Source of the DNA: Thiomargarita sp.
Lineage (GTDB): Bacteria; Pseudomonadota; Gammaproteobacteria; Beggiatoales; Beggiatoaceae
Reading direction: 5' to 3'
NCBI GenBank assembly: GCA_020720115.1
Contig: DYPD01000007.1
Coordinates: 1-56,504 of the forward strand
Length of the DNA stretch: 56,504 bases
Under the pieces are notes generated by a model. That model did no database searches. It was not told the origin of the DNA and saw only the letters and a list, made by a program, of their open reading frames with translations. The position numbers and the translations under genes were made by a program. Positions 31,833-46,698 of the stretch are shown one piece after another (the first letter of the stretch is position 1; the number at the start of each line of letters is the position of its first letter).

Positions 31833-33356
31833 TCATGTCGCTTCTTCGATTTTGATGGGCAATATCACTTCAAAACGACTGCCTTGACCGGGTTGGCTGC
31901 TGACTTGGATGTCGCCACCCATTAAACGACAAAATTGCCGGCTCAACACCAGCCCTAAACCTGTGCCTCCATATTTTTGTGCTGTTTTATCAGTGGCTTG
32001 CGCATATTTATGGAACAATCGCTGTAGCTCTTCTGCGCTCATGCCAATACCTGTGTCTACCACATAAAAAATCAGGGTGTCTGTTTGTCGTATCGCTCCG
32101 AGCGTGATGTCGCCTTGCTCGGTGAATTTGCAAGCGTTACTGAGTAAATTCAGTAGCACTTGCTGCACTTTAAGCGAGTCGGCGTAGATTTCGCCTAAAT
32201 CTGCTTCGGCTTTGATAATCAAGCGGTTGGCGTTTTTGCGCACGAGCGGCATGATGGTGGACTCGACTTTACGCAGCAGTGGTAGGACGGCAAAGCTCTC
32301 CAAATTCAGCGGCATTTTGTTTGCCTCTAATTTGGATAGGTCGAGTATGTTGTTGAGCAAATTCAGCAAGTATTTGCTGGCGTGGGAGATTTTTTCTAAA
32401 TCTTCGTGATCTTGCGCGTCGCTGGCATCCTCTAACAGCATTTCGCTGTAACCGATAATGGCATTCATGGGGGTGCGTAGTTCGTGGCTCATGCCCGCCA
32501 GAAATTCGGATTTGGCTTTGACTGCTGATTCGGCGTCTTCTTTGGCTTTGAGTAGGGCGGTTTCGTATTCTTTGCGCTGGCTGATGTCTTCCAGTGAGCC
32601 AACAAAACCGTTGCAAATGTTGTCGTGCAACAGGGGTACGGCACGCATTTCCACCCACAGAAAAACTCCACCAAGATCGGTGGATAAGCGAAATTCAGCA
32701 TAAAATTCATTGGGTTGTGCGATTACCCTTTGCCAGTCTAGGAGCAGACGCGGGCGATCTAGCGGGTGTGCAATCTGTAGCCAGTCGCTATCTAGTTGCA
32801 GCAAACCCTTGCCAGTAATCTGTTCCCACTGCGGGTTTGCGTAGAGCAACGTGCCCTGTGCGTCAGTTTGGAAAATGCCGATGGGCGACCAGGTAGACAG
32901 CAGGCGAAAACGCTTTTCTGAGGTTTGAATCTGGCTCAAGAGCAGTTCGCGTTGTTTAATCAATAAGCGCGTGTGCAAATGGACACGAACGCGGGCGCAG
33001 ACTTCTTCTTGCTTGAAAGGTTTGGTGATGTAATCCACTGCGCCCAAGCGGAAACCATCCATCAGGTCTTGGGTGTCGGTTTTGGCGCTGATGAAAATCA
33101 CCGGAATATCGGCATTATTTGGATTCGCTTTCAGGCGGCGGCAGGTTTCAAAGCCATCTATACCGGGCATCATAATGTCGAGCAAAATCAAGTCAGGTTG
33201 GGTACGCTCGGTGATTTTAAGGGCTTTTTCGCCGTCGTTGGCGAAAGAGAGGCGATAGCCTTCAGGCGTTAGCACTTTGCGCAACACGTCAATGTTGGCA
33301 GGCGTGTCGTCTACCATCAAGACTTTGGCTTGGGTTAAATCAAGGTCATTGAGCAT
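31833..33356 (-). CDS. Response regulator/PAS histidine kinase (REC-PAS-HisKA-HATPase)
   Basis: A 507-residue soluble protein. Receiver domain: residues 1-130, with DD at 16-17, phosphoacceptor D60 (ILLDIMMPGIDG) and K in DYITKPF. PAS domain: ~145-260 (FQTDAQGTLLYANPQWEQITG, GSLEDISQRK). HisKA: H291 in FLAGMSHELRTPMNAI. HATPase: NLLSNACKFTEQG, DTGIGM and GGTGLGLVLSRQF. The start codon lies inside the upstream kinase gene (11-base overlap), so translation is coupled. The likely flow is CHASE8 hybrid kinase to this receiver and then its own kinase core, but no DNA-binding or cyclic-di-GMP output domain is encoded nearby. It is the last gene of the operon. Confidence 0.9.
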   Translation of the reverse strand: MLNDLDLTQAKVLMVDDTPANIDVLRKVLTPEGYRLSFANDGEKALKITERTQPDLILLDIMMPGIDGFETCRRLKANPNNADIPVIFISAKTDTQDLMDGFRLGAVDYITKPFKQEEVCARVRVHLHTRLLIKQRELLLSQIQTSEKRFRLLSTWSPIGIFQTDAQGTLLYANPQWEQITGKGLLQLDSDWLQIAHPLDRPRLLLDWQRVIAQPNEFYAEFRLSTDLGGVFLWVEMRAVPLLHDNICNGFVGSLEDISQRKEYETALLKAKEDAESAVKAKSEFLAGMSHELRTPMNAIIGYSEMLLEDASDAQDHEDLEKISHASKYLLNLLNNILDLSKLEANKMPLNLESFAVLPLLRKVESTIMPLVRKNANRLIIKAEADLGEIYADSLKVQQVLLNLLSNACKFTEQGDITLGAIRQTDTLIFYVVDTGIGMSAEELQRLFHKYAQATDKTAQKYGGTGLGLVLSRQFCRLMGGDIQVSSQPGQGSRFEVILPIKIEEAT

Positions 33357-35613
33357 CCGCTAAACTCTCTAGCAAGGCGATGATTCCGCTGCTGTCGTAC
33401 TGATCCAGGCGTTGCTGGCAGTGTTCGGCAAACTGTTGCCACGCGGGTTCACCGCTGCGTAACTGCACAAGTAACTGTTCTAATTCAGTTAATTCGTTAA
33501 ATTCTGCCGCTTCCAACAACTGCTGATAGAGTGCGGGCGGCAATTTCAGCGTTGTAAAATCTATTTCAGCGGCAACCACTGGCTGCTCATCAGCCGCCAG
33601 CACGGGTTCAAACTCTACCTGAAGGTGCTGGCGCAGCGCCTCGTATACAGCTTCAAAATAAAAGGGTTTGCTGATAAAAGCTTGGTAGCCGGCGTCTAGC
33701 ACCTCTTGATTTTGCTGGCGCAAGGGAGACGCAGAAATGGCAATGCACACCGGCATTGCCGTGACCCATTGGGCTTGAATGGCTTGAATCAATTCTACGC
33801 CGTCCATGCCGGGCATCCGAATATCGGAAAATACGACTTCTGGCAGTTGCTGACGCAGCATCGCCAAAGCCGCCGCGCCGCTGTCAGCAAGTGCTACTTG
33901 GATGCCCAAATCGCCCAACAGATGCGCCAACAGGCTGCGATTTTCTTCGATGTCATCCACCACCAATGCGTGTAGCGATTGTCCGGCACGCAAGCGCATT
34001 TTGCCCAAAATCGGGGCAGGTGCGTGCGGGAATTGGCTACTATCGCCCGCTTGCAACGGCAATTCCACCGCAAAACAAGCCCCCTTGCCCAGTTCAGAAT
34101 GCACATTGATGCGCCCTTGCATCAATTCGATCTGGCGGCGGGTAATGGCTAAACCTAAGCCAGTGCCGCCCTTGTCCAGTCCGGCTTGTTCTTGCTGAAA
34201 AGGCTCAAAAATGCTGCGCTGTGCAGCGGGCGCAATGCCGGGACCTGTGTCACACACGGTAAAGCGGTAAAGGGCTTGCGCCCCGTCTGCTGGCGTTGTG
34301 AGGCGCTCTACGCTTAAGGTGACGCTGCCGTTGTCGGTAAATTTTACGGCATTACCCAGCAGGTTAATCAAAATTTGCCGCAGTTTGCCTTGATCGGCAT
34401 AAATGGGTTGTGGAATAGCGACTTGGTTTTGTACTTGCCAGTGCAATTTTTTTTGTGTGCAGCGCAATTGAAACAGGGCGCTGATTTCTTCTAGCAAAGC
34501 TGACAAACAAAAATGCTCTAGGCGTAATTCCACCGCACCTGCTTCGATTTTAGAAATGTCTAAAATATCGTGAATCAACCCCAGCAGATGATTGCCGCTG
34601 CTTTCAATGGTTTTTAAGGCATTGCGCTGGACGGCGGTAAGTTCGGTATCACGGCGCAAAATCTGCGTATAGCCCAACACTGCATTCATGGGCGTGCGGA
34701 TTTCGTGCGACATGTTCGCTAAAAAAATGCTTTTGGCTTTACTGGCAGCGAGGGCTTGATCGCGGGCTTCGGCAAGTTCGACAGTGCGCTGTTCAACTTT
34801 CTCTTCCAAGTGCTGGCGATAGTCTTTAAGCTCTTGGTTATTATCATGAATTTGTCCAAGCATATGATTAAAGCCGTCAATCAATGTGCCCAGTTCATCG
34901 TCGCTATTTTTGTGCGCCCGCACCTGGTAATTTTTCTCTGTGGACACTTGGCGCATGATGTCTAGCAAGTGAAAAACCGGCGCTGTGACCAGACGCTGTA
35001 GACGCGACGCCAGCAAAAATGCCAGTAACATGCTCAGTAACATGACCGCCAGCGTGATGCCTGCTGCCCAAGTCAGACGGTTATGCAATTCGGTTAAATC
35101 GGCGCTGATGTACACAGTGCCCAGTATTTCTTTTTGGAAATAGATATGTTGAAACACCTCAACGCGGTTTTCTTCCCAAAACACCTGATCAGAAACGGCT
35201 AAGCCCGTCACCTCTGGTTTGCGCTGGATAAAGTAGAGGTCGCCCACCGTCAAACCAGGCTTAAAATCCGCTGGCACTTTTTCGTGGCGGAAATAGCTGG
35301 CGAACAACAAGCCATCCTTACCGAAAATGTGCGCACACTGGATATTGGGTTTGGCTTTTAAGGCGCTCATGTTTTCGCGGGCAATACGGGCATCTTGAAA
35401 CAGCAAACCCGCAGTGCTGTTAATGCCCACCAATTCTGCCATTGCCCGCAAATCCAGAGCCACGTTACGGCGAAAAATGAAAAATTCGTTACTGACAAAC
35501 GCCAGCGAAGCCCCCAGCAGCACAATGGCGCTGGTCAGCATGATAATGGCGGTCAGTTTGTTGCGTAACGAACTATTGCGGAAACTGTGGCGTAAGCGAT
35601 TGAGTGCCAGCAT
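33346..35613 (-). CDS. CHASE8-HAMP hybrid histidine kinase
   Basis: A 755-residue inner-membrane kinase. TM1 is at ~20-42. The periplasmic segment ~43-180 reads as CHASE8, the YfiN/TpbB-type sensor (DLRAMAELVGINSTAGLLFQD, LKAKPNIQCAHIFGKDG). TM2 is at ~182-204, HAMP at ~205-260, then coiled coil. HisKA has H303 (FLANMSHEIRTPMNAVLG), and HATPase has NLLGNAVKFTDNG and GGTGLGLAITRRQ. A receiver follows at ~550-680 (VVFSDIRMPGMDG). The C-terminal helical region lacks the H-x-L-K-G of an Hpt domain. The gene directly upstream encodes a YfiR-family protein, the known periplasmic repressor of CHASE8 sensors. I infer YfiR controls this kinase as it does YfiN. It overlaps the next kinase gene by 11 bases. 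Confidence 0.9.
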   Translation of the reverse strand: MLALNRLRHSFRNSSLRNKLTAIIMLTSAIVLLGASLAFVSNEFFIFRRNVALDLRAMAELVGINSTAGLLFQDARIARENMSALKAKPNIQCAHIFGKDGLLFASYFRHEKVPADFKPGLTVGDLYFIQRKPEVTGLAVSDQVFWEENRVEVFQHIYFQKEILGTVYISADLTELHNRLTWAAGITLAVMLLSMLLAFLLASRLQRLVTAPVFHLLDIMRQVSTEKNYQVRAHKNSDDELGTLIDGFNHMLGQIHDNNQELKDYRQHLEEKVEQRTVELAEARDQALAASKAKSIFLANMSHEIRTPMNAVLGYTQILRRDTELTAVQRNALKTIESSGNHLLGLIHDILDISKIEAGAVELRLEHFCLSALLEEISALFQLRCTQKKLHWQVQNQVAIPQPIYADQGKLRQILINLLGNAVKFTDNGSVTLSVERLTTPADGAQALYRFTVCDTGPGIAPAAQRSIFEPFQQEQAGLDKGGTGLGLAITRRQIELMQGRINVHSELGKGACFAVELPLQAGDSSQFPHAPAPILGKMRLRAGQSLHALVVDDIEENRSLLAHLLGDLGIQVALADSGAAALAMLRQQLPEVVFSDIRMPGMDGVELIQAIQAQWVTAMPVCIAISASPLRQQNQEVLDAGYQAFISKPFYFEAVYEALRQHLQVEFEPVLAADEQPVVAAEIDFTTLKLPPALYQQLLEAAEFNELTELEQLLVQLRSGEPAWQQFAEHCQQRLDQYDSSGIIALLESLADAQ

Positions 35614-35617
35614 AGAT

Positions 35618-36190
35618 TTATTCCAGGGTGTCTACTAACTTTGCCAATGCCAGCAAGCGGGCGCTGATGTTCACTCCTGCCTGCTGTGCGACTTGGCGAT
35701 TGATTTCCAAACGTACTCGTTGGTCATCGCCAGTAGCCAGATTTACCATGCCGCCGCGCTCGGCAAACGCTTCTATATCAGAAACCGTCAATACCGGATA
35801 AGCCTGCAACAGCCGCAAAAGCTCAGTCAAATGCGCGGTTTCTGAGCGATCAATAAAAAGCACATGACAGGCAAGCTGCGTCTGCGCTGGCGGGTAGGCA
35901 TAAAACGCTACACGAATAGGATGACCGCGCACCTGTTTGTCACGAATGGCTTCAAAGGCATCGCCAAAGCTATTGTTACCCAGCACACACAGGTTCAACG
36001 GCTGCTCAGCGGTTTGCGTTTGCTCTTGCGGCCATTCCACCATGCGCATTAGGTTGAAAATAAAGGCGGCTTTAAGCGGATACTCGTTGCTCGCAGACGA
36101 CGGGCTAATCAGCAGCAAGCTGCTGATTAAAAACGCTAAAAAACTGCACACTAAGCGGTAGCGACAGAGTCTGATGAAGGCAGAAAACAT
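35618..36190 (-). CDS. YfiR-family periplasmic protein upstream of the CHASE8 kinase
   Basis: A 190-residue protein. I start at MFSAFIRLC (36190), just after apbE; an upstream ATG at 36229 would overlap apbE by 25 bases. A signal peptide or anchor (LVCSFLAFLISSLLLISPSSAS) precedes the DUF4154 domain: NEYPLKAAFIFNLMRMVEWPQE, LNLCVLGNNSFGDAF, ACHVLFIDRSE, VLTVSDIEAFAERGGMVNL and LEINRQVAQQAGVNISARLL. It ends 4 bases before the CHASE8 kinase gene. In Pseudomonas, YfiR binds the periplasmic domain of YfiN and is released by the outer-membrane protein YfiB; here the YfiN-like sensor is fused to a kinase and no YfiB is present. Confidence 0.88.
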   Translation of the reverse strand: MFSAFIRLCRYRLVCSFLAFLISSLLLISPSSASNEYPLKAAFIFNLMRMVEWPQEQTQTAEQPLNLCVLGNNSFGDAFEAIRDKQVRGHPIRVAFYAYPPAQTQLACHVLFIDRSETAHLTELLRLLQAYPVLTVSDIEAFAERGGMVNLATGDDQRVRLEINRQVAQQAGVNISARLLALAKLVDTLE

Positions 36191-36204
36191 TACACCAACG
36201 ACAA

Positions 36205-37302
36205 TTAAATTAAACAAGAGACAATGCAAGAGGGCAGGCGATAAGTCGCATAGCGCGAAACCTGTGCCGCTTGTGCTTGAACAAAACCCGCAAAAGCTTT
36301 GGAATAATGTTCCACAATGCCGGTTTCAGTGTCTTCCAGCAAATACACAGCTAACTGTTCTCGCTCTGCCAGCGCCAAGGCTTTTTCCACGCCCAATACC
36401 ATAAAAGTGGTCGCCAGCGCATCGGCTTGCATGGATTCTGGGTGCAGCACCGTCACTGACACCAGGCGATGCGACACGGGCGAACCTGTATGGGGATCAA
36501 TGGTGTGGGAATAGGTTTGCCCCTGCCACTGGAAAAAATTACGGTAACTGCCCGAAGTGGCTACGCCGGTGTCAGGCAACGCCACCACGCGCTCAACGGT
36601 TCTCACACTGGGATTGGGATCAGGCTGCTCAATCGCCACGCGCCATTGCTGGTCTTCAGCGTTATGCCCTGCCAGGCGCAATTCGCCGCCAATATCCACC
36701 AAATAATTTTTAATGCCCAACTGGACTAAATAGTTGGCTAATTGATCCGCTGCATAACCTTCGGCAAGCGCGGATAAATCCAGGTATACATCAGGAATGT
36801 CTTTGCGCAAGGCAGGCGGATTCTCGCGCACATGCACGCGCTGGTAGCCAACACGCGCCTTTGCCGCCGCAATTTCTGCCGCTGTAGGTATTTGATCGGC
36901 TTTCGGTGTGGGACCAAAGCCCCATAAATTCACCAAGGGACCCACGCTAATGTCAAAAGCGCCGTCGCTGAGGCGGCTAAAGTTCAGCGCCGCCTGTACG
37001 ACATACAAGAGTTCTGGCGAAACAGCGACCCAATCAGTGCTGGGATTTTGGTTAAAACGCGAGAGTTCCGAGTCTTTTTGGTAAGTAGACATGAGCGCAT
37101 TGATCGCCTGTAAGCGGGTTTCCAAGGCTTCATGCACTTGTTTTGGCTGAATATTTGGCGGAATATCCACAATTTTCACCGCATACTGAGTGCCCATCGT
37201 TTGCCCTTGCAACTGGGTTAAACGCGATGCAGGTGTGGGTTGGCAAGCCATCAACGAAAGGCTACAAAAGGCAATAACAAGGCGACAAAATGAGGGATTC
37301 AT
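36205..37302 (-). CDS. apbE: FAD:protein FMN transferase (ApbE), lipoprotein form
   Basis: A 365-residue protein. Start at 37302 chosen because it gives a lipoprotein signal (MNPSFCRLVIAFCSLSLMACQP, lipobox LMAC). ApbE features: LQGQTMGTQYAVKI, DSELSRFNQNP, DGAFDISVGPLVNLWGFGP, LDLSALAEGYAADQLA, YLVDIGGELRLAG, GVATSGSYRNFF, YSHTIDPHTGSPV and the metal-binding DALATTFMVLG. ApbE covalently attaches FMN to Thr residues of exported or membrane flavoproteins such as NqrB/RnfG or FMN-bind domains. No such target is recognised in the window. It is the first gene of the minus-strand yfiR-kinase operon, 14 bases before the yfiR start. Confidence 0.93.
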   Translation of the reverse strand: MNPSFCRLVIAFCSLSLMACQPTPASRLTQLQGQTMGTQYAVKIVDIPPNIQPKQVHEALETRLQAINALMSTYQKDSELSRFNQNPSTDWVAVSPELLYVVQAALNFSRLSDGAFDISVGPLVNLWGFGPTPKADQIPTAAEIAAAKARVGYQRVHVRENPPALRKDIPDVYLDLSALAEGYAADQLANYLVQLGIKNYLVDIGGELRLAGHNAEDQQWRVAIEQPDPNPSVRTVERVVALPDTGVATSGSYRNFFQWQGQTYSHTIDPHTGSPVSHRLVSVTVLHPESMQADALATTFMVLGVEKALALAEREQLAVYLLEDTETGIVEHYSKAFAGFVQAQAAQVSRYATYRLPSCIVSCLI

Positions 37303-37467: not shown

Positions 37468-38091
37468 ATGAACAGCGAAAACACCCCTTATCTCGCCACT
37501 GTTGGCACACTAGAAACCCAATTACGCGCAGCAGAAAACAGCTTGCAAGAGGATGCAGCGGACGATGAAGCCGCTGCTGGTGGCGGTAATGTAGATAAAA
37601 TCCGCGATATTCTGTTTGGTGGGCAAATGCGCGATTACGAAAAACGCTTTAAGCGCATGGAAGATCGCTTTGCCAAAGAAAACACCCATGTGCGCGAAGA
37701 TTTAGGACAGCGGATTCGTGCGCTAGAAGAAATGCTCAATAGCGAACTCGACAGCTTAGGCGACAAGCTTAAAACCGAGCGCCAAGAACGCCAGGGCATG
37801 TATCAAGAATTGCAGCAAGAAATCACCAGCCTGAAAAATGAATTAAACAACCGCATCACGCAGTTAGATGAATTGTTTAGCAAAGACATGAAACAACTGC
37901 GCCAGCATATGCACAACAAGTTTCAAGAAATCAGCAATCAAATGCGCCAGCAAAACGATAATCTGGCTACCCTCATGAAACAAGAAGTTGCGCATTTGCA
38001 AGAAGCTAAAGTCAATCGTAGTGATTTAGCCTCTTTCTTCACCGAGTTTGCTGTGCGTTTAAATAAAGACTTTAATGCCAGCGGGCAATAA
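37468..38091 (+). CDS. Coiled-coil protein, first gene of the GTPase signalling locus
   Basis: A 207-residue soluble protein with no signal peptide or membrane helix. Residues ~1-60 are acidic and low in complexity (LQEDAADDEAAAGGGN) and include DKIRDILFGGQMRDYEKRF. Residues ~65-190 are an almost uninterrupted coiled coil rich in Glu, Lys, Arg and Gln. The tail is FFTEFAVRLNKDF. The segment ILFGGQMRDYEKRF with its following helices is distinctive and may define a family, but I recognise no named domain. GAGGAACCCC precedes the ATG. It is 74 bases upstream of the OmpA-domain protein gene, whose N-terminus is also helical, so a direct interaction is plausible (inference). Confidence 0.75.
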   Translation: MNSENTPYLATVGTLETQLRAAENSLQEDAADDEAAAGGGNVDKIRDILFGGQMRDYEKRFKRMEDRFAKENTHVREDLGQRIRALEEMLNSELDSLGDKLKTERQERQGMYQELQQEITSLKNELNNRITQLDELFSKDMKQLRQHMHNKFQEISNQMRQQNDNLATLMKQEVAHLQEAKVNRSDLASFFTEFAVRLNKDFNASGQ

Positions 38092-38099
38092 GCTTTGCC

Positions 38100-38138
38100 A
38101 GATGCTTGCTTTTTTCATTAGGCTAAGAGCAAGCATCT
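38100..38138 (+). other. Intercistronic hairpin
   Basis: An 11-bp perfect stem (AGATGCTTGCT at 38100-38110, AGCAAGCATCT at 38128-38138) with a 17-base T-rich loop lies 8 bases after the coiled-coil gene. No T-run follows, so it may be a processing or stabilising hairpin or a leaky terminator that sets different levels of the two proteins. Confidence 0.6.
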
Positions 38139-38165
38139 CATTCACCCAACACGACTCCCCCCCTC

Positions 38166-41087
38166 ATGGATGACTATACTCGGTTGCGCAAGCTACTGTT
38201 GCAAGATGAACAAGATCGCCTAGATAAGCTCGATCAACGTCTTAACGATCCGCAACAGCGTTCGCGTGAAACGGCTGAAGTGTTACCGCAAGCAATCCAC
38301 TTGCTTGCCCAGCATAAACCCGCGCATTTGCAAAAAGCTCTGCAAACCCCAGTAGAAAACTGCGTGGAAACTTCATTTCAGGCTGATGCTCAAAAATTTG
38401 CTAAACCGCTATTGAATGCCATGTCTCAACCTTTGCGCAAAGCTATCGCGGATTCCTTTAAGTCCATCCGCGAATTCGTACAAATCAATCAAGAACAGAT
38501 TGTGGCGTTGGAAGCTCGCGTGCAAACACTTGAACAGCGCGACTGGGCGGGTTTGCTTAAACAACTAGAACAGCGCGAACACAATATACTGGCTCAGTTG
38601 CAAGCCTTTGAAACTGAAATGCAGGATATTGACAAGCGTTCTTCCGAACTTGCTCAGATTCTGCCAGTGGCGATTCGTAAAGCCAGCGAAGCCCAAATGC
38701 AGCGCCTAGAAACGCCCGCTGAACCTGCGGGTGCTTTGCAAGTGGATATTGAAGAACTCAGCGCCTCACTCAAAGGACCGGTGGAGCGTTCTTTACGCCA
38801 ATCCATCAGCGATGATCCGCACAGTTTGGCCAATGCGCTGTTTCCCATTATGGGACCTGCGATTCGTAAATCTATTAACGAATCCATTAAAGGTTTGGTA
38901 CAAAATCTTAATCGTACCATTGAGCGCAGCCTCTCCCCACAGGGCATGGCGTGGCGCTTAGAAGCGCTGCGTAGCGGGCGTCCCTTTGCCGACATTGTGT
39001 TACAAAAAACCCTGGTTTACCGCGTTGAACAAGCGTTTCTCATTCACCGTGAAACCGGTTTGCTGATGCAGCATTTGCACTTGGAAGGCGTCGCGGTGGG
39101 CGATTCGGATGCGGTGTCTGGAATGCTCACTGCGATTCAAGATTTCATCCGCGATTCTTTCTCGACTACGAAAAAAGAAGAATTAGACAGCGTAGACATC
39201 GGGGATTTCACCGTGTGGCTAGAGCGCGGACCTTATGCAGTGTTGGCGTGCGTCATGCGCGGCACTGCACCCTATGCGTTTCGCAGCACCATGCGGGCAT
39301 TGCTAGAACTGATGCACGCCCGCTACGGACAGGCTTTAGAACATTTCTCTGGCGATTCAACAGAAGTAGAACTGTGTCGTCCATTGCTGCAAAAAGTCAT
39401 GCAAGTCGAGGAAGTTCCTAGTGAAGCAGCAAAGCAAAAACGTCGTTTTTCTCCGACGCTGATACTGTTGGTGCCCTTGACGTTCGTCATCGGTGGCTGG
39501 GTGGGCTATCGGCAGTGGCATCATTATTTGCTGCAACAACACATTGTCCACTATTTACACGCCTTAGCCCAAGAACCTGGCATTATTGTCACCGACACAC
39601 AGCAGGATGAAAATTACTTGTATTTGCGTGGTTTGCGCGATCCTTTAGCGCGTACCCATAGCGCAGTGGCGGCGGATACGGGTTTTGTCGCGTTGGGCGT
39701 CAGCGCCCATTGGGAGGCTTATCAGGATATGTCCGCGCCCTTTGTCGAGCAGCGTCTGCAAGCGCAAGCCGCTCGCTGGTTACAGCCGCCAGAGAGTGTG
39801 ACGGTAGGCTGGCAAGGCAGCGCCCTGGTGCTCAGCGGTCATGCGGATCGAGACTGGATTGAGCGCATCCAAAACGATGCCCCCATGCTGGCGGGTTTAA
39901 GCGGATTAGACACGCACGCACTGGTAGAAAACGATGACTATTGGCAACAAACCCAGGCACAATTTGACGCATTTCTCAAAGCCTTGAACAGCACGCCAGG
40001 AATTATTGTGGTGTCTTCGGGTATAGAAAATAACAAGCGATTTATCAATGGAATGCGCGATCCGCTGGCGGCTGATCCAGAACACACTGCCGCGCAAATG
40101 CAAATTCGCAGCCTGGATATGCGGTGGCGCAATTACCAGGATTTAACCCCAGAATTTGTGCGCCAGCGTGCGGCTCAATACCTCGCACCCGTGCCCGATA
40201 CCGTACAATACCAAATCGAAGGCAATCTGCTGCGCCTGCAAGGTCACGCGCCGCAAGCCTGGCTGGATAAAGCCCTGCGCGTTACCAGCGTCGCCGGCAT
40301 CAACCAAGTAGACGCCAGTGCGCTACAAGAGACCGACCAGATTTTGCTGGCACGCGCCACCGCACAACTTCAGCCCGAAGCCAGCATTAAATTGGCAGTC
40401 GAACACAGCGTGCTCAACGTATCTGGCGTTGCCGAACAAGCCTGGCTAGAAGAGGTGCTCACACCTGCCAAAATCGAAGGCATTGCACAAATACACACAG
40501 AAGCCCTGCAAAGCCGCGATGCGCTACTGTTAGCGCAAGCGCAAATCCAGCTAAAGCCACCTGTTGGAGTGCAGCTTAAAGTCCATCGCCGTCATCTCAA
40601 GCTCAGCGGGCAAGCCAGTCTGCCAGACATCCAGCGCCTACGCTCAGAGGCGCAAGCCCTAGAAGGCATCCAGGCAATAGACAGCAGCGAATTGCAAGAC
40701 CAGGACGCACCGCGCCGTGAAAACTTGCGCCAAGCCATTGATAATACTAAGCTTCTATTTATTGACGGCACCGAACTCGACACCCGCCAGCAACGCGCCA
40801 TGCGGAAACTGGCACAGCAAATCAGCGAACTAGCCACCTTGAATGCCGGACTCGCGCCGCCATTACAGGTCGCCGTCACTGGCTACACCGACGGCTTAGG
40901 CAGCCAAGAACACAACAGCGCCCTCAGCCGCGAACGCGCTCAAGCCATACGCCAAGACCTCATTGCCGCTGGTGTGCCGCCTAATCTGTTGATCGTACAG
41001 ATGCCAGAACATATTCTGTTTGGCGAACAGAAAGCAGATTTACAACAGCGCAAGGTAGTGTTTCAAGTGATGAATGCTCATCCATAA
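38166..41087 (+). CDS. Large inner-membrane protein with BON-like repeats and C-terminal OmpA-like domain
   Basis: A 973-residue protein. Residues 1-280 are cytoplasmic and mostly helical (MDDYTRLRKLLLQDEQDRLDK, internal repeats around PVERSLRQSI and LVQNLNRTIERSL). Residues ~283-395 form an alpha/beta segment (VEQAFLIHRETGLLMQHLH, AVSGMLTAIQDFIRDSF, FTVWLERGPYAVLACVMRG) with a longin/roadblock-like order of strands and helices. A single membrane helix follows at ~430-450. Then come repeated BON-like modules (PPESVTVGWQGSALVLSGHA, PDTVQYQIEGNLLRLQGHA, and two more), and a C-terminal OmpA/MotB peptidoglycan-binding domain (~860-973; VTGYTDGLGSQEHNSALSRERA). It would link the cytoplasm to peptidoglycan. 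The Ras-like GTPase encoded downstream is a candidate ligand of the cytoplasmic segment (inference). Confidence 0.85.
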   Translation: MDDYTRLRKLLLQDEQDRLDKLDQRLNDPQQRSRETAEVLPQAIHLLAQHKPAHLQKALQTPVENCVETSFQADAQKFAKPLLNAMSQPLRKAIADSFKSIREFVQINQEQIVALEARVQTLEQRDWAGLLKQLEQREHNILAQLQAFETEMQDIDKRSSELAQILPVAIRKASEAQMQRLETPAEPAGALQVDIEELSASLKGPVERSLRQSISDDPHSLANALFPIMGPAIRKSINESIKGLVQNLNRTIERSLSPQGMAWRLEALRSGRPFADIVLQKTLVYRVEQAFLIHRETGLLMQHLHLEGVAVGDSDAVSGMLTAIQDFIRDSFSTTKKEELDSVDIGDFTVWLERGPYAVLACVMRGTAPYAFRSTMRALLELMHARYGQALEHFSGDSTEVELCRPLLQKVMQVEEVPSEAAKQKRRFSPTLILLVPLTFVIGGWVGYRQWHHYLLQQHIVHYLHALAQEPGIIVTDTQQDENYLYLRGLRDPLARTHSAVAADTGFVALGVSAHWEAYQDMSAPFVEQRLQAQAARWLQPPESVTVGWQGSALVLSGHADRDWIERIQNDAPMLAGLSGLDTHALVENDDYWQQTQAQFDAFLKALNSTPGIIVVSSGIENNKRFINGMRDPLAADPEHTAAQMQIRSLDMRWRNYQDLTPEFVRQRAAQYLAPVPDTVQYQIEGNLLRLQGHAPQAWLDKALRVTSVAGINQVDASALQETDQILLARATAQLQPEASIKLAVEHSVLNVSGVAEQAWLEEVLTPAKIEGIAQIHTEALQSRDALLLAQAQIQLKPPVGVQLKVHRRHLKLSGQASLPDIQRLRSEAQALEGIQAIDSSELQDQDAPRRENLRQAIDNTKLLFIDGTELDTRQQRAMRKLAQQISELATLNAGLAPPLQVAVTGYTDGLGSQEHNSALSRERAQAIRQDLIAAGVPPNLLIVQMPEHILFGEQKADLQQRKVVFQVMNAHP

Positions 41088-41110
41088 AATCCACTTTTGT
41101 TGGAGGAATT

Positions 41111-41335
41111 ATGCGCCAAATTAGCTGGAATGAATTACTCACTTCACCGGCGGAATTATTAGAATGGATACAACAGGGTAATGCTTTAAGAATTTATCAG
41201 TCAGGCAAACCCATTGCTGAACTTCTACCATTATCTGCTACGCCCCAACCTGCTTGGAAACATTCTATTCAACGCATGAGTTTATCTGGGGTAAAATTGA
41301 GTGCAGAAATTCTACATGATCGAGATGAAAGCTAG
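41111..41335 (+). CDS. Phd/YefM-type antitoxin, apparently orphaned
   Basis: A 74-residue protein (MRQISWNELLTSPAELLEWIQQGNALRIYQSGKPIAELLP) with the Phd-like pattern: N-terminal DNA-binding region followed by a strand containing G-K-P-I-A-E-L-L. A strong ribosome binding site (TTGGAGGAATT) precedes the ATG. In this family such antitoxins are followed by PIN-domain VapC ribonucleases. Here only a 14-codon stub of a PIN protein remains (41338-41382), so the antitoxin has lost its toxin. It sits between the OmpA-domain protein and the GTPase genes. Confidence 0.78.
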   Translation: MRQISWNELLTSPAELLEWIQQGNALRIYQSGKPIAELLPLSATPQPAWKHSIQRMSLSGVKLSAEILHDRDES

Positions 41336-41337
41336 GT

Positions 41338-41382
41338 ATGAAACTCTTTTTTGACACCTCCGCATTAGTATTCATCAGATGA
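41338..41382 (+). pseudogene. VapC/PIN toxin remnant
   Basis: An open frame of 14 codons (MKLFFDTSALVFIR, then TGA) starting 2 bases after the antitoxin stop. M-K-L-F-F-D-T-S-A-L-V is the canonical first strand of PIN-domain toxins, including the first catalytic Asp, and is normally followed by ~120 more residues. The rest is absent: the GTPase gene begins 22 bases later. A large 3' deletion has removed the nuclease. Confidence 0.85.
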
Positions 41383-41404
41383 ATAAAACAGGACAAAACA
41401 CCCT

Positions 41405-41905
41405 ATGGTTCAGAAAAAAATCTGCATGATTGGTGATTTTTCGGTGGGCAAAACCTGCACCGTCGGGCGCTTTATACGTCAAACTTTCTCCGACAAATAT
41501 TTAACTACCGTCGGCGTGAAGATTGACACCAAAGTCGTGCAACTGCCCTCCGGCGACGAAGTCAAATTCATTCTCTGGGATATTGCAGGTAACGATGCCC
41601 TGACCACCGCCAGCGCCTCCTATTTGCGCGGCGCAGCGGGTTATTTATTGGTCGTGGATGGCACTCGCCGCCCAACTTGGGAAAGCGCCAAAAAACTCCA
41701 GGCAGCAGTAACGCAACAAATCGGCGAAAAACCCTTTTTAGTGTTGCTCAACAAAGCCGACTTAACCGAACAATGGGAAATCAAACAAGCTGATGTAGAT
41801 GAGCAACTTAAACAAGGTTGGAAAATGCTCAAAACCAGCGCCAAAACCGGCGAAAATGTAGAACAAGCCTTTGCAATATTGGGGCGCTTACTGGTAGGAA
41901 AGTAA
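41405..41905 (+). CDS. Ras/Rab-like small GTPase
   Basis: A 166-residue single-domain GTPase of the Ras superfamily. G1 is GDFSVGKT at residues 10-17, G2 Thr is at ~34-35 (YLTTVGVK), G3 is WDIAGND at 58-64, G4 is NKAD at 116-119, and G5 is SAK at 145-147. The position of the catalytic Gln61 of Ras is Asn63, so intrinsic hydrolysis is probably weak and a GAP or partner is expected. There is no C-terminal Cys for lipidation, so membrane recruitment must come from a partner. Ras-like prokaryotic GTPases (MglA, Rup) are known from many phyla; this one is closer to Rab-like Rup proteins than to MglA by eye. It is encoded 114 bases upstream of a histidine kinase. Confidence 0.92.
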   Translation: MVQKKICMIGDFSVGKTCTVGRFIRQTFSDKYLTTVGVKIDTKVVQLPSGDEVKFILWDIAGNDALTTASASYLRGAAGYLLVVDGTRRPTWESAKKLQAAVTQQIGEKPFLVLLNKADLTEQWEIKQADVDEQLKQGWKMLKTSAKTGENVEQAFAILGRLLVGK

Positions 41906-42018
41906 CTCAAATCACCTGTGTTATAGCAAAATGTTCTTGGTTGCTCTCCCCCATCACCCAAATTTTTCTGCCGCAACCCAGCGTTTTTGCTCACTCATTT
42001 ACCTTTGGATTTTTTCTT

Positions 42019-43569
42019 ATGCAACATATCCCATTGAGCATTGCTAAATACATTCGTTCTTTATGGATGTCAGAATTAATTTTGACCTATTTCCATGTGG
42101 ATAAACAAGGCTTATTGGTCGAATGGGGCGGGCATCCGCGCCATTACGGTTTACCTACACCAGAAATAGGTGAAGCAGCGAATGAACAAATCAATTTCTT
42201 AGAAGGCGTCTTGCCTATTGAATATACCCAGGTATTGGAATTTGTTGGGGTCAGCAGTGGGCGCGTTGCGCATGTACATTTGATTCCGTTTGAAAAAGGC
42301 ACTTGGGTATTGTTATTTGATGCAACAGCAGAACATGATCGCCAGCAACAGATTCAACAGCAATATAATGAACTGAGCGTACAATCTTATCGGCAAATGC
42401 AATTACTCCAAAACTTAGAAAGCGCCCGTCAACAATTGCAGGCAGAAAAACACAAACTAGAACACTCTACCGAAGCCAAAAGTCGCTTTATTTCTAGCCT
42501 CTCACATGAACTTCGCACACCTTTAACTTCCATTGTTGGTTACACGCATTTACTCAATGAAACAGAACAAGCCAAGGCACAAGAAAGCCAATACCTTAAT
42601 TCGGTACAACAGAACGCCAGTTATTTATTGAATTTAATTGATAATGTACTTGCACAAGCACGTTCAGAAACCCAGCAAATTTCTATTCATCCTAGCAGTT
42701 GTCAGGTGAAAAAACTCTTAGATGATATTGAACACTTATTTTTCCCGCTGGCACAAGAAAGAAAATTAGCCTTTAGCTTAATTCGCCAGGTGGATTTACC
42801 TGAACAATTGCTGCTGGATGAATTGCGAGTACGGCAGGTATTCATTAATCTGATCTCTAATGCCTTAAAATTCACCACTCAGGGTTCTGTCACGGTGCAG
42901 GTCAATTGGCAGGCGGAGCGTTTACAATTTAGTGTGCAAGACACGGGACCTGGCATTTCTGCAGCGGGACAAAGCAAGATTTTTGAGGCTTTTCACCGCG
43001 AGCAAAGCACCACCCATGTGCAAGGCGTAGGCTTAGGGCTGTTCATTAGCCGCCAACTGGTGCAACTCATGGGCGGCGACCTAAGTCTGATCTCAGAACT
43101 GCACAAAGGCAGCACTTTTACTGTTGAAATTCAAGCACCTGCCGTACAAGCGGCGGCGCCCACAGCCGCCGCGTTACGCTCCAAACCCAACAGCAGCAAC
43201 CCCTATAACATCCTGCTGGCAGAAGACAGCTTGGGTATTCGCACTTTATTAGAACTTTATTTGCAGGAAGGTGGCTATAAAACTCTGCTTGCTGAAGACG
43301 GCGAACAAGCGGTGAAAATGGCGTTGCAACACCAGCCTGACGCGGTTTTGATGGATTTGCAAATGCCAGTTTTAGATGGCTTTGCCGCTACCATTGAGTT
43401 GCGCAAACAGGGTTTCACTGCGCCCATCATCGCGCTGTCTGCTTCAACGCTGGCGCAAGATCGCAAAGAGGCGATGCAGGCTGGCTGCGATCTGTATCTG
43501 ATGAAGCCCCTGGATGCCGATTATCTCTGGTTTAATCTGCAACAAATCCTTCCCCCCAACGCGGCTTAA
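42019..43569 (+). CDS. PAS-like hybrid histidine kinase (input-HisKA-HATPase-REC)
   Basis: A 516-residue soluble kinase. I start at ATG 42019 (MQHIPLSIAKYIRSL); the open frame extends upstream into the GTPase gene, but that part looks non-coding. Residues ~18-106 are a PAS-like input domain (LTYFHVDKQGLLVEWGG, VHLIPFEKGTWVLLFD), followed by coiled coil. HisKA has phosphoacceptor H163 (FISSLSHELRTPLTSIVG). HATPase has NLISNALKFTTQG, DTGPGIS and GVGLGLFISRQL. A C-terminal receiver has AED and VLMDLQMPVLDG with K in LMKPLD. The input domain resembles the N-terminus of the cyclase encoded next, including the linker QQxNELS. It lies downstream of the GTPase, a possible upstream regulator. Confidence 0.88.
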   Translation: MQHIPLSIAKYIRSLWMSELILTYFHVDKQGLLVEWGGHPRHYGLPTPEIGEAANEQINFLEGVLPIEYTQVLEFVGVSSGRVAHVHLIPFEKGTWVLLFDATAEHDRQQQIQQQYNELSVQSYRQMQLLQNLESARQQLQAEKHKLEHSTEAKSRFISSLSHELRTPLTSIVGYTHLLNETEQAKAQESQYLNSVQQNASYLLNLIDNVLAQARSETQQISIHPSSCQVKKLLDDIEHLFFPLAQERKLAFSLIRQVDLPEQLLLDELRVRQVFINLISNALKFTTQGSVTVQVNWQAERLQFSVQDTGPGISAAGQSKIFEAFHREQSTTHVQGVGLGLFISRQLVQLMGGDLSLISELHKGSTFTVEIQAPAVQAAAPTAAALRSKPNSSNPYNILLAEDSLGIRTLLELYLQEGGYKTLLAEDGEQAVKMALQHQPDAVLMDLQMPVLDGFAATIELRKQGFTAPIIALSASTLAQDRKEAMQAGCDLYLMKPLDADYLWFNLQQILPPNAA

Positions 43570-43589
43570 GCAGCCAATAAGGAGTGCCT

Positions 43590-44666
43590 GTGCCAGAAAG
43601 CTGCCCGCCCCTGCTGGAAGCGCTGCTGTATGAGCAAAAATTGGCGTATATCCTACTTTCGCCGGAGCAACAGCTGTTAGCTCAAGGCGGCGACGCCAGC
43701 TTATTTTTTTCACCGCCCACGCCAGATTCCGATTTCTACGAACTCATCCCCGAACTCATGGGCTGTGAAGAAATTTTGCACGAGATTCTCAACGCACAAA
43801 TGCCGCGTTTTGAATTACCCAATATCAACCGAGACTTGAAAAACGGCGGCATCCGTTATGTCAGTATCAGCGTTTTACCACATCAAACCGAAGTGCAAGG
43901 GCAAACCGGCTTACTCATCATCCTGGCAGACACGAGCGATTGGCTGCACAACGAACAAGAGCTGACCCAACAGCGCAACGAATTATCGCTGCTAAAACAT
44001 AGCCTTGACGACACCAACCAACGCTTAAACTTCATCATGCAGCGTTATGTGCCCAAGGAAGTCAGCAAAGCCCTGATGGAAAACCGTTTGCTCCCCAGCT
44101 TAGGCGGCGAAGTGCGCGAAATCAGTGCCCTGTTTGTGGATTTACGCAACTACACGGGCATCAGTGAACGCCTAACGCCGACAGAAACCATTGAAATGAT
44201 TAATAATTTCCTCTCTGTCGTGTGTCAAGCCATTGCCGATGCTGGCGGCATGGTGGTCAATTACATGGGTGATGCAGTGATGGCAATCTTCAACGCCCTG
44301 GAGTATCAACCCGACCACGCCCGCCGTGCGGTACAAGCGGGTTTGCAGATGCAATCCAACCCATTACAGCTACACTGCGAGCGCGTCGGGCACAGCGAAA
44401 CCCTCTATTTCGGCGTCGGCATCAACAGCGGACAAGCCTTAGTCGGCAACATAGGCGCATTACAGCACTATCAATACACCGCCATTGGCGACATCATCAA
44501 CGTCGCCTCGCGCATTTGCGGACAAGCCCGCCCCACCGAAGTGTTGATTGGTGCAAACACCTTTACCCACATCCAAGCCGGTGTAGACGCCGACTCTCTG
44601 CCACCCATGCTCTTCAAAGGCAAAACTCAACCCCTCACCGTCTACCGCGTGCGCAACTTGACATGA
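43590..44666 (+). CDS. Class III adenylate/guanylate cyclase with PAS-like input domain
   Basis: A 358-residue soluble cyclase. GTG at 43590 is chosen because AAGGA sits at proper spacing; GTG at 43584 would overlap it. Residues ~14-118 form the input domain (LAYILLSPEQQLLAQGGD ... GLLIILADTSDW), then a coiled-coil linker. The catalytic domain (~165-345) has both metal Asp residues (FVDLRNYT D184, YMGDAVMA D228), the transition-state Asn304/Arg308 (INVASR), and T297 in YTAIGD. The adenine-selecting Lys that usually precedes the second metal motif is Asn224 (VVNYMGD), so nucleotide preference is uncertain. The start is 20 bases after the kinase gene, and the stop overlaps the next start (ATGA). 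Confidence 0.92.
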   Translation: MPESCPPLLEALLYEQKLAYILLSPEQQLLAQGGDASLFFSPPTPDSDFYELIPELMGCEEILHEILNAQMPRFELPNINRDLKNGGIRYVSISVLPHQTEVQGQTGLLIILADTSDWLHNEQELTQQRNELSLLKHSLDDTNQRLNFIMQRYVPKEVSKALMENRLLPSLGGEVREISALFVDLRNYTGISERLTPTETIEMINNFLSVVCQAIADAGGMVVNYMGDAVMAIFNALEYQPDHARRAVQAGLQMQSNPLQLHCERVGHSETLYFGVGINSGQALVGNIGALQHYQYTAIGDIINVASRICGQARPTEVLIGANTFTHIQAGVDADSLPPMLFKGKTQPLTVYRVRNLT

Positions 44667-45685
44667 ACCCTGCCACCAAACCCCCTGCTTCGCCAGCACG
44701 TCTCACTTGGGAATGCAACATTAGGCTGCTGCGCGAGCCGCTACTGCTGGGTTCAGTGGTAAAGGCTTTTGCCATTGTGTACCTGCTCATGGCGCTGCTG
44801 ATGGGGGTAATTTTTCTGGGACAGGGCGAATGGCGGGTGTGGCTGGATATGCTGTGGCTATTTGCCCTGGTGACAGGTGCATTGCTGGTGCTTAGTGTAT
44901 TGATTATGCTGCTTATTTTTCGTAACCGCATGGATGCCAGTTTTATTTTGGACAAGCGCCGCGCCTTTTGCCAACTGTACGGTCGTGATGCACAACAGAT
45001 GGCGCCTTATGCACGCTGGTTAGGTTTTCTGCTGGGAAAACCGCAATTAGGCGGAAAATTCAATAAGTTAGTGAGACAAGCTGTGGAATACGATTGGGCA
45101 CAAATCAGCGCGGCTCACTACCAAGCACAACGCTACCGCATAGTGCTACGCAATGGCTGGCGCACTTTGCTAATCCTCTATTGCCCAGCGCCGCGTTACG
45201 CAGAAATTGCGGCTTTTGTAGAGCGCCACATCAAGGCAGCGCACCCGCCCAGACAGCCGCGTCCCGCTTCGCCCTTGCCGCGTATTTTGTGGCGCTCGGT
45301 TTTGATTGTGCTTGCCAGCGCCAGCTTGTTTGCATTACCTTATCCCTTTGAGCAAGATGTTTTTTTCTTGATATTTTTACTCTGTTTTGGCTTTGCCACT
45401 GCGTGGATTCTTAGCTTGCTAGGCTATGCAGTGCTGTTTGGCGTGCTTTGGAGTCTGGGCGAAATACTTTACACGGGTTTTCACCAGCGCCCCGCCACTT
45501 TTCACTTCAGCGGAATGCCCGATCACTACAGCGGTTTTGATTTACTATTCGGCGATGAATGGCTGGCATTGGCGCTGACGCTGGCGGGATTAACCTATCT
45601 TGCTTGGGATGCCTGGCAAGCCGTGCGTGGCAGAAATCCTTCAATGCTCGAACGCGATTATGGCGCAGAGCGCCGCGATGACTAA
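44663..45685 (+). CDS. Membrane protein of unknown function, coupled to the cyclase
   Basis: A 340-residue protein starting with an ATGA overlap on the cyclase stop codon, so it is translationally coupled. Membrane helices are visible at ~33-55 (VVKAFAIVYLLMALLMGVIFL), ~63-88, ~208-225 (ILWRSVLIVLASASLFALP), ~229-265 and ~300-318. Between helices 2 and 3 is a ~115-residue soluble domain (NRMDASFILDKRRAFCQLYG, GFLLGKPQLGG, YRIVLRNGWRTLLILYCPAPRY). A C-terminal basic/acidic tail follows. I recognise no named family. As the last gene of the GTPase locus it may be the output or localisation partner of the cyclase. Confidence 0.75.
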   Translation: MNPATKPPASPARLTWECNIRLLREPLLLGSVVKAFAIVYLLMALLMGVIFLGQGEWRVWLDMLWLFALVTGALLVLSVLIMLLIFRNRMDASFILDKRRAFCQLYGRDAQQMAPYARWLGFLLGKPQLGGKFNKLVRQAVEYDWAQISAAHYQAQRYRIVLRNGWRTLLILYCPAPRYAEIAAFVERHIKAAHPPRQPRPASPLPRILWRSVLIVLASASLFALPYPFEQDVFFLIFLLCFGFATAWILSLLGYAVLFGVLWSLGEILYTGFHQRPATFHFSGMPDHYSGFDLLFGDEWLALALTLAGLTYLAWDAWQAVRGRNPSMLERDYGAERRDD

Positions 45686-45744: not shown

Positions 45745-46236
45745 ATGCCATCACCTATTGATACAAAAAACACGCTGGTGCTGGGTATAGGCAATATTTT
45801 ACTGTCTGATGAAGGTGTCGGCGTGCATTTACTGCATTATCTGCAACAGCATTATCAGTTTGAATCTGTAGAGTTTATAGACGGCGGCACTTTGAGTTTT
45901 ACGCTGGCTATTGCCATTGAAAACACCGAACAATTGATTGTTCTCGATGCGGCTCAATGGCATGAACCCCCTGGCACTATTCGCTGCTTGCAAGATGAAG
46001 CAATGGATGTTTTCTTAAGCAAACCCAGCTTAAGTGTGCATGAAGTGAGCCTGGTTGATTTATTGAATATTGCCCGTTTAACTGGACGTTTTCCTAAAAG
46101 ACGTGCTTTAATAGGCATTCAGCCAGAAACCCTCAGTTGGGGTACAACAGCAACCACACAAGTAACCCAAGCACTGCCAATAGCGGCTCAACAAGTGGCT
46201 AAACTTATTCAACAATGGCAACAACAACCTGCCTAA
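45745..46236 (+). CDS. [NiFe] hydrogenase maturation protease (HyaD/HybD/HycI family)
   Basis: A 163-residue endopeptidase that removes the C-terminal peptide of a [NiFe] hydrogenase large subunit after nickel insertion. Signatures: LVLGIGNILLSDEGVGVHLL with the first nickel-sensing Glu/Asp, FIDGGTLSFTL, LIVLDAAQW, and the conserved His in SLSVHEVSLVDLL. Length is normal. It implies that a large subunit is made in this organism, although none is encoded in the window. It is followed 39 bases later by a HupH-like gene and further on by the hydrogenase small subunit. Confidence 0.93.
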   Translation: MPSPIDTKNTLVLGIGNILLSDEGVGVHLLHYLQQHYQFESVEFIDGGTLSFTLAIAIENTEQLIVLDAAQWHEPPGTIRCLQDEAMDVFLSKPSLSVHEVSLVDLLNIARLTGRFPKRRALIGIQPETLSWGTTATTQVTQALPIAAQQVAKLIQQWQQQPA

Positions 46237-46275
46237 TAGCGGGCAATCTATCCGGCTTTAAGCAGCTAAAATAAG

Positions 46276-46698
46276 ATGATTCCCACAGAACACTTCAAAT
46301 TAAACGCTGAACCCAACACAGACCTAGACACGGGCAATTTATTACCCGTGTTACATCAGATTTGTCATGCTACAGACAAATTGATACAGCACAATAGCGA
46401 AACCCTCATAGACCTAAACGCCATGCCGTTTGCCCCAGGTGAAAAAGAGCGCCTAAAAGCCACTTTAGGGCGCGGCGAAATCAGTATACAACTGAATGTA
46501 TTAGGGCGTAGCGAACTGTACGAAACCCAGTATGCGGGCGTATGGTGGATAGAACATTACAACAGCAATGATAACCTCATGGCACAGCTCATTGAAATTA
46601 ACTGGCTACCCGCTATTGCGCGCAGCCAAGCAGAAGATGTTCATGCCGGGTTACACAAGATGAAAGCATTTTTTATTCAACACAACGGAGATGATTAA
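46276..46698 (+). CDS. hupH: HupH/HyaF-like hydrogenase expression protein
   Basis: A 140-residue protein matching the C-terminal conserved region of HupH/HyaF: LKATLGRGEISIQLNVLGRSELYETQYAGVWW (by parts), followed by LIEINWLPAI. These factors assist assembly of the iron-sulfur-containing small subunit of uptake hydrogenases, often under oxygen. The N-terminal ~40 residues (LPVLHQICHATDKLI) are helical. Full HupH proteins are about twice as long, so this is a short form that keeps only the C-terminal module. It overlaps the ATG of the next gene by one base (TAATG). Confidence 0.8.
   Translation: MIPTEHFKLNAEPNTDLDTGNLLPVLHQICHATDKLIQHNSETLIDLNAMPFAPGEKERLKATLGRGEISIQLNVLGRSELYETQYAGVWWIEHYNSNDNLMAQLIEINWLPAIARSQAEDVHAGLHKMKAFFIQHNGDD

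Follow-up and report, generated by a model that had tools for sequence, protein, structure and literature searches.

What does a small Ras-like GTPase do when its gene lies on one strand with genes for an OmpA-type membrane protein, a hybrid histidine kinase, and a class III nucleotide cyclase? The question is raised by a stretch of 56,504 nucleotides from Thiomargarita sp. (GenBank assembly GCA_020720115.1, contig DYPD01000007.1, positions 1 to 56,504; the whole stretch is called the window below), in which an original prediction, made from the letters alone, had seen a candidate envelope-anchored signalling system of six genes and a combination that could not be named. All six open reading frames (ORFs) are present on the plus strand at 37468-45685 (Table 1). 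Here, we assign five of them, on the GTPase motifs, the neighbouring genes, and a glutamine (Gln) of the output proteins, to a Group 1 Rup GTPase system, a neighbourhood described in silico in 2014 (Wuichet and Sogaard-Andersen, PMC4316618).

According to the main text of PMC4316618, Rup1 genes encode a coiled-coil protein, a protein with a domain of unknown function (DUF), a transmembrane (TM) segment, and an OmpA domain, a Ras-like GTPase without the Gln of motif G3, and an output protein with an invariant N-terminal Gln. The same text suggests that the missing Gln of the GTPase is supplied in trans, includes Cyanobacteria and gammaproteobacteria among the hosts, mentions that a Group 1 Rup of Nostoc punctiforme is transcribed, and reports no experimentally characterised family member. 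The window has the coiled coil, the DUF-TM-OmpA protein, the Gln-less GTPase, and an output with an N-terminal Gln, and the system itself is of an already known kind. Typical outputs in that text are a kinase or a diguanylate cyclase/phosphodiesterase, whereas the window adds a class III cyclase; the domain of the OmpA protein is left unknown there, whereas a longin fold is predicted here; and a PAS fold of the output N-domain goes beyond that description. The terms longin, PAS, adenylate, guanylate cyclase, class III, and cAMP never occur in the main text. In listings and passages from the openly licensed PubMed Central literature, we found neither a Rup system with a class III cyclase for its output nor a bacterial longin-OmpA protein with a Rab-like GTPase. 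Relative to the literature searched, four features would be new: the identification of the domain as a longin, class III cyclases as outputs that carry the N-domain of the system, the presence of two outputs beside a single GTPase, and outputs encoded away from it.

The single-domain Ras-like GTPase is borne out by Pfam (Ras, E 1.1e-29, residues 5-161 of 166), and its motifs are intact (G1 GDFSVGKT, G3 DIAGN, G4 NKAD, G5 TSAK). In G3, aspartate (Asp) 59 is kept and asparagine (Asn) 63 stands at the Gln61 position. Among 77 GTPase sequences, the G3 Asp is present in all 77 and a Gln at the Gln61 position in only 3 (absent from 74). At E<=1e-25, and with the host genome counted, the GTPase was found in 35 of 115 relatives (of which 31 are among the 42 host-family genomes), 44 of the 398 genomes searched across the phylum, and 19 of the 194 cyanobacterial genomes.

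The MglA/MglB switch is also a bacterial Ras-like GTPase with a regulator of the roadblock/longin superfamily. MglB is a separate small protein, whereas here the longin domain would belong to a membrane protein anchored to the wall. According to the main text of PMC4316618, the G3 Asp is missing from the MglA family, in contrast to the GTPases of the window type. Membership in the MglA family was rejected on the retained Asp and on the lack of an adjoining MglB roadblock gene, a typical though not universal neighbour. Robl_LC7 matches of the host genome are confined to contigs C174 and C128, the window being contig C141, and none adjoins the GTPase. Because roadblock genes do not track the GTPase in the host family (24/31 GTPase-positive versus 9/11 GTPase-negative genomes), an MglB-type partner was rejected as well.

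To describe the neighbourhood, 89 GTPase loci were compared: the window, 60 of the 80 proteobacterial matches outside its own genome (all 34 from the scan of 115 relatives and 26 of the 46 from the phylum-wide scan of 398 genomes), and 28 cyanobacterial loci, of which 20 come from the 21 GTPase matches there and 8 were located by way of domain matches, with a bias towards those domains. One locus without a GTPase (L174) was dropped, and the loci fetched for unlinked genes (L159-L166, L168) stand outside the count. Genes were counted as "near" when their centres were no more than 9 kb apart; several loci are truncated by contig ends, and presence counts are therefore lower bounds. Upstream of the GTPase and on the same strand, the coiled-coil gene was found in 58/89 loci and the longin-OmpA gene in 65/89. 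The enzymes near the GTPase were a PAS-kinase in 44 loci, a PAS-cyclase of class III in 33, and a PAS-GGDEF protein in 4; both kinase and cyclase were near in 8 loci, including four cyanobacterial ones, and both GGDEF protein and cyclase in 2. Eleven loci had no output recognised by the profiles, one of which (L090) has a protein with GGDEF/EAL-like motifs. The 20 unbiased cyanobacterial loci held the coiled coil in 15, longin-OmpA in 17, PAS-kinase in 7, PAS-cyclase in 7, and both enzymes in 2; kinase and cyclase stand near a cyanobacterial GTPase, as in the window, at L120, L121, L170, and L171 (the last with its kinase on the other strand). Because the core grouping recurs over the 89 loci, it is more than chance.

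The expectation that the genes are neighbours in related genomes was upheld in part. The PAS-kinase lies near the GTPase in 28/31 host-family loci, and in the 58 loci outside the host family the core holds (longin-OmpA 51, coiled coil 48); within the host family, longin-OmpA (14/31), coiled coil (10/31), and cyclase (4/31) are mostly not neighbours of the GTPase. Of the 18 retrieved loci where the OmpA protein lies apart from the GTPase, 8 retain an adjoining coiled-coil gene, and at L123 the cyclase is divergent from an adjoining coiled-coil and OmpA gene pair. The coiled-coil protein, which may be a partner of the OmpA protein, is conserved near both ends (consensus RdilFG.q.Rdy..RF.rlE and K..R.dLA..f.E.a.rL over 57 sequences); Pfam and NCBIfam gave it no name, with generic matches only, below cut-off.

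Genes of the system also co-occur across genomes (Fisher tests here ignore phylogeny and genome size). In the 42 host-family genomes, the OmpA protein is present in 29/31 GTPase-positive versus 1/11 GTPase-negative genomes (Fisher 4.7e-7), and the cyclase in 25/30 OmpA-positive versus 0/12 OmpA-negative genomes (Fisher 5.6e-7; by genus, 16/18 versus 0/7, p 7.5e-5). All 25 cyclase-positive genomes have the longin-OmpA protein, mostly unlinked, and in 21 of the 25 the cyclase lies elsewhere in the genome than the GTPase. Among the 194 cyanobacteria, a strong match to the cyclase-type N-domain was found in 23/25 longin-positive versus 1/169 longin-negative genomes (Fisher 1.7e-26), "strong" covering 24 of 32 matching genomes, with the 8 that have weak partial matches (E 2e-8 to 6e-7) excluded. 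In the exceptional cyanobacterium (G617), the cyclase-type N-domain adjoins a GTPase; in four others (G603, G686, G514, G578), a PAS-cyclase lies elsewhere in the genome.

Both predicted output enzymes were recovered by Pfam: HisKA, HATPase_c, and Response_reg all match the hybrid histidine kinase, and Guanylate_cyc matches the 360-aa cyclase (2.4e-19, above cut-off). The kinase start at ATG 42019 (516 aa) agrees with homologues; the TTG at 41818 given in the ORF list would overlap the GTPase. No Pfam family matched the kinase N-domain in any of 32 members at E<=0.01. Its predicted model (predicted local distance difference test [pLDDT], 87.2) gave PAS domains or PAS-containing proteins as the structural matches listed (best Z, 10.0), and a PAS fold is predicted with high confidence. 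By sequence comparison, the cyclase N-domain is a second family related to this PAS domain: between disjoint sets picked by iterated profiles, hhalign gave 95.1% for kinase-type against the cyclase-type N-domains of the window, 99.8% for kinase-type against cyclase N-domains of two other proteobacterial families, and 99.8% for the cyclase-type N-domains of the window against cyanobacterial outputs. In the helix that follows the N-domain, a Gln three residues before an Asn is found in 60/60 kinase-type and 40/41 cyclase-type sequences, and this Gln would correspond to the output Gln of PMC4316618. In a single-sequence search of 1552 ORFs (E<=1e-3), the cyclase N-domain matched two groups, 24 distinct orthologues of the cyclase, itself counted, and 16 proteins that follow Rup GTPases in cyanobacteria; the search says little on other genes, because the ORFs were drawn around Rup-type loci. 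In cyanobacteria, the enzymes encoded after the GTPase that begin with the cyclase-type N-domain are kinases, GGDEF proteins, and class III cyclases. The cyclase keeps FVDLRN, NYMGDAV, and INVASR, with what we take to be the two metal-binding Asp and the transition-state Asn and arginine (Arg).

The N-domains occur in further arrangements. Eight loci (L044, L046, L047, L050, L054, L059, L060, L062) have a stand-alone kinase-type N-domain protein of 148-173 aa before the GTPase, which could be a free docking subunit or one resembling a GTPase-activating protein. A 793-aa kinase at L010/L070 has both N-domain types in tandem, and a 2515-aa protein at L175 (cyclase-type N-domain, kinase, and receiver domains) lies behind a cyanobacterial GTPase.

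The 973-aa protein comprises, in order, cytoplasmic helices, a longin-like domain, one TM segment, periplasmic repeats, and a C-terminal OmpA domain. The OmpA-like domain was found as expected (Pfam OmpA, 4.8e-9); the BON-like domains proposed beside it had no Pfam match in the whole protein (E<=1) or the periplasmic part (E<=0.1), where repeats are visible by eye. Hydropathy gave one TM segment in this protein, five hydrophobic segments in the polytopic protein, and none in kinase or cyclase, and the KQKRR just before the segment suggests that the N-terminus is in the cytoplasm. No Pfam or NCBIfam family names the cytoplasmic part. An AlphaFold2 model of residues 194-427, built from six sequences, has two strands, a helix, three strands, and two helices, which is the order of a longin fold. 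Foldseek against PDB gave 13 matches at E<=1e-3 (adaptor sigma/coat chains, Sec22b longin, the MglA-MglB complex, MglC, Ego3, folliculin-Ragulator, and Mon1-Ccz1). The best row of VIA-align 2 was Sec22b longin (Z 13.6; 125 residues; root mean square deviation, 2.8 A), followed by Ykt6 longin (Z 13.3), Fuzzy-Inturned (12.5), and Mon1-Ccz1 (10.9); among the best 50 rows, the first of roadblock type was Ego3 (Z 10.3), which we take to be a roadblock fold. A profile of 77 homologues, run against 177,635 PDB sequences, gave five matches at E<=10, namely BET5 (0.29), a roadblock/LC7 protein (0.54), BET5 again (0.92), and two unrelated glucansucrases. From the model, the cytoplasmic domain is predicted to be a longin fold with middling confidence. 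In passages of PMC3521125 and PMC10933270, longin and roadblock domains figure as related platforms for small GTPases, and a table in PMC4917890 jointly marks "Longin/Roadblock" as present in bacteria, so that bacterial domains of the longin-like class as such had been noted before.

The envelope-anchored Ras-like GTPase module with kinase and cyclase outputs that the original prediction had proposed fits the comparative data. From the computed gene content, recurrence, GTPase motifs, N-domain relation, shared Gln, and co-occurrence, we consider it fairly probable that the locus encodes a Group 1 Rup module in which a wall-anchored longin-OmpA protein sets the GTPase, which in turn switches the kinase and the cyclase. 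The OmpA domain would anchor the 973-aa protein to peptidoglycan, and the protein would cross the inner membrane once, its longin-fold domain facing the cytoplasm. Signalling would run inwards from a sensed wall state, with the state of the envelope acting through the longin-OmpA protein on the nucleotide state of the GTPase; the longin domain and the coiled-coil protein would recruit the Rab-like GTPase, either as a platform or in a role like that of a guanine nucleotide exchange factor. The loaded GTPase may then dock on the PAS-type N-domains of the hybrid histidine kinase and the class III cyclase, so that one GTPase would drive two outputs, phosphorelay and cyclic nucleotide. The nearly invariant Gln in the helix leaving the PAS domain would supply in trans the catalytic Gln that the GTPase lacks; if so, hydrolysis would be coupled to output switching.

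Several results weigh against this module. The longin model has a mean pLDDT of 67.2, a predicted template modelling score of 0.56, and ten-residue pLDDT means of 53 to 91 over the longin part. The PDB sequence matches to longin families are not significant alone (E 0.29-0.92); Pfam Fuz_longin_1 matches 3/77 members (best E, 0.052), and two unrelated sub-threshold Pfam families match as many of the 77, with better E-values. Kinase-type N-domains against cyanobacterial outputs reached only 33% in hhalign, and the use of iterated profiles to pick the compared sets and of Fisher tests blind to phylogeny and genome size count on the same side, as do the scattered longin-OmpA and cyclase genes of the host family. 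The two roadblock genes elsewhere in the host genome could also serve the GTPase instead.

Signalling might run in the reverse direction, with PAS-kinase and cyclase as inputs that set the GTPase and the GTPase acting on the envelope, perhaps through longin-OmpA as its effector. PAS folds often bind ligands, and longin folds are also found in adaptor subunits and SNAREs. In the main text of PMC4316618, moreover, the actinobacterial conservon (CvnA-D) is proposed to have its GTPase as output, and Rup1 is called analogous to it, and the conservon likewise joins a small Ras-like GTPase with a histidine kinase and a protein of the roadblock/longin superfamily. As described there, however, its GTPase is of the MglA family, its MglB-like protein is separate, its CvnC is of unknown function, and its four proteins include no OmpA protein and no cyclase. 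The partner enzymes of the Rup loci are interchangeable (kinase, class III cyclase, GGDEF), and because the N-domain stays constant while the enzymes vary, one switch feeding several outputs fits better; the kinase also carries its own receiver domain. We regard the reverse direction as unlikely. Another reading accepts the core and takes the cyclase for an independent enzyme with an ordinary PAS-like N-domain, standing beside the kinase by chance in this genus. It gains from the rarity of the cyclase near the GTPase (4/31 family loci), from its position elsewhere in the genome in 21/25 cyclase-positive relatives, and from an unusual base-recognition site: Asn occupies the position of what we take to be the usual base-recognising lysine in the window cyclase and all 24 aligned family orthologues, a further point against the favoured module. 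Because of this replacement, cAMP or cGMP is not assigned as the product, and the nucleotide specificity may, from the sequence, be unusual. Yet within the 1552 ORFs, a sample drawn around such loci, the cyclase N-domain was found only in orthologues and Rup outputs; the cyclase shares the conserved Gln with kinase-type N-domains and co-occurs with the OmpA protein in 25/25 family genomes; kinase-cyclase pairs recur near cyanobacterial GTPases (L120, L121, L170, L171); and at L123 the cyclase adjoins the coiled-coil and OmpA genes, divergently. An independent cyclase seems to us quite improbable.

The cytoplasmic domain could instead be of roadblock type (MglB-like), making a divergent GTPase-roadblock pair. 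The Foldseek matches include 3t12_C (from the MglA-MglB complex, E 4.2e-4, taken as the MglB chain by its length) and MglC, the second sequence match of the 77-member profile is a roadblock protein (E 0.54), and the longin model has a short helix before its first strand. The longin rows nevertheless lie about 3 Z units above the first roadblock row, with an aligned range that includes the C-terminal helices, and we give the roadblock assignment a small chance. That no functional system exists and unrelated regulatory genes merely stand side by side would agree with the mixed linkage in the host family and with the antitoxin-like ORF that interrupts the gene order; but coiled coil, longin-OmpA, GTPase, and PAS output recur together in several proteobacterial families, in cyanobacteria, and in PMC4316618, which leaves this reading hardly credible.

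Table 1. Features of the Rup locus and adjoining ORFs, in coordinates of the window
Feature	Position	Strand	Basis
Coiled-coil protein, 207 aa	37468..38091	+	ORF; consensus over 57 sequences; upstream on the same strand in 58/89 GTPase loci
Longin-TM-OmpA protein, 973 aa	38166..41087	+	Pfam OmpA; TM segment; homologues upstream of GTPase in 65/89 loci
Predicted longin-fold domain, residues about 277-418	38994..39419	+	AlphaFold2 model, Foldseek, VIA-align 2, weak BET5 sequence match
TM segment, residues 428-446, KQKRR just before	39447..39503	+	Hydropathy
OmpA domain, residues 870-945	40773..41000	+	Pfam PF00691, 4.8e-9, above cut-off
Phd/YefM-like antitoxin ORF, 74 aa	41111..41335	+	E 0.011, below cut-off
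Ras-like GTPase of Group 1 Rup type, 166 aa	41405..41905	+	Pfam Ras; motifs G1-G5
Hybrid histidine kinase, 516 aa (N-terminal PAS, Q-x-x-N-E helix, HisKA, HATPase_c, receiver)	42019..43569	+	Pfam; PAS model
Class III nucleotide cyclase, 360 aa, GTG start	43584..44666	+	Pfam Guanylate_cyc; N-domain related to kinase PAS
Polytopic membrane protein, 340 aa	44663..45685	+	ATGA overlap with cyclase; judged outside the system

The ATGA junction of the original prediction is a 4-bp overlap; the gaps, described there as small, are 74, 317, 113, and 14 bp. Promoter-like sites (10 versus 9.3 in shuffles) and terminator-like sites (14 versus 12.9) are neither commoner than chance; because they match the shuffles, a single transcript is not supported, and a single operon based on these scans was rejected. 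Within the 317 bp ahead of the GTPase gene lie an overlooked 74-aa antitoxin-like ORF and then a short ATG-started frame that stops early; 41111-41404 looks like a remnant toxin-antitoxin insertion, and the antitoxin-like ORF is probably an insertion and not part of the system.

The polytopic membrane protein, which had been counted as a sixth member, dropped out: it has no homologue among the ORFs of L004-L013 and L043-L158, and only 3 of the 115 relatives, the host genome included, have one, G001 of the same genus being without. Its nearest homologue (G005:C48:2119-3090, 46% identity) belongs to a genome in which neither the GTPase nor the OmpA protein passed the thresholds applied, and no Pfam family matched the polytopic protein at E<=1. 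Fifty-nine base pairs past it, at 45745-46698, begin genes for a hydrogenase maturation protease (HycI) and a HupH-type protein. On the minus strand at 33346-36229, a YfiR-like periplasmic protein (NCBIfam TOL_0243 type, just above cut-off) lies beside a CHASE8-HAMP hybrid kinase of YfiR-associated type, by sequence a putative second envelope signalling pair next door.

In the eukaryotic TRAPP core, Mon1-Ccz1, and Fuzzy-Inturned, a longin fold is likewise paired with Rab-like GTPases; such regulators are among the structural matches, and TRAPP BET5 is the best sequence match. Eukaryotic longin Rab regulators are soluble multi-subunit complexes on endomembranes, whereas here one longin domain would sit on a single-pass peptidoglycan-binding protein. 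In eukaryotes, the pairing of longin regulators with Rab may have its bacterial counterpart, and possibly its source, in the wall-anchored longin and the Rup GTPase, a proposal that is speculative and rather unlikely. A hypothesis in the main text of PMC4316618 holds that Rab, Ran, Ras, and Rho arose by horizontal transfer, grouping closely with Group 1 Rup, and the present loci link a GTPase of that group genetically to a predicted longin domain. If the favoured module is true, it would provide a mechanism by which the state of the envelope reaches kinase, cyclic-nucleotide, and cyclic di-GMP outputs through one Rab-like switch, and a testable one for a GTPase family in which, by the main text of PMC4316618, no member is characterised by experiment; the candidate bacterial longin-GTPase pair would bear on the origin of the eukaryotic Rab-longin machinery.

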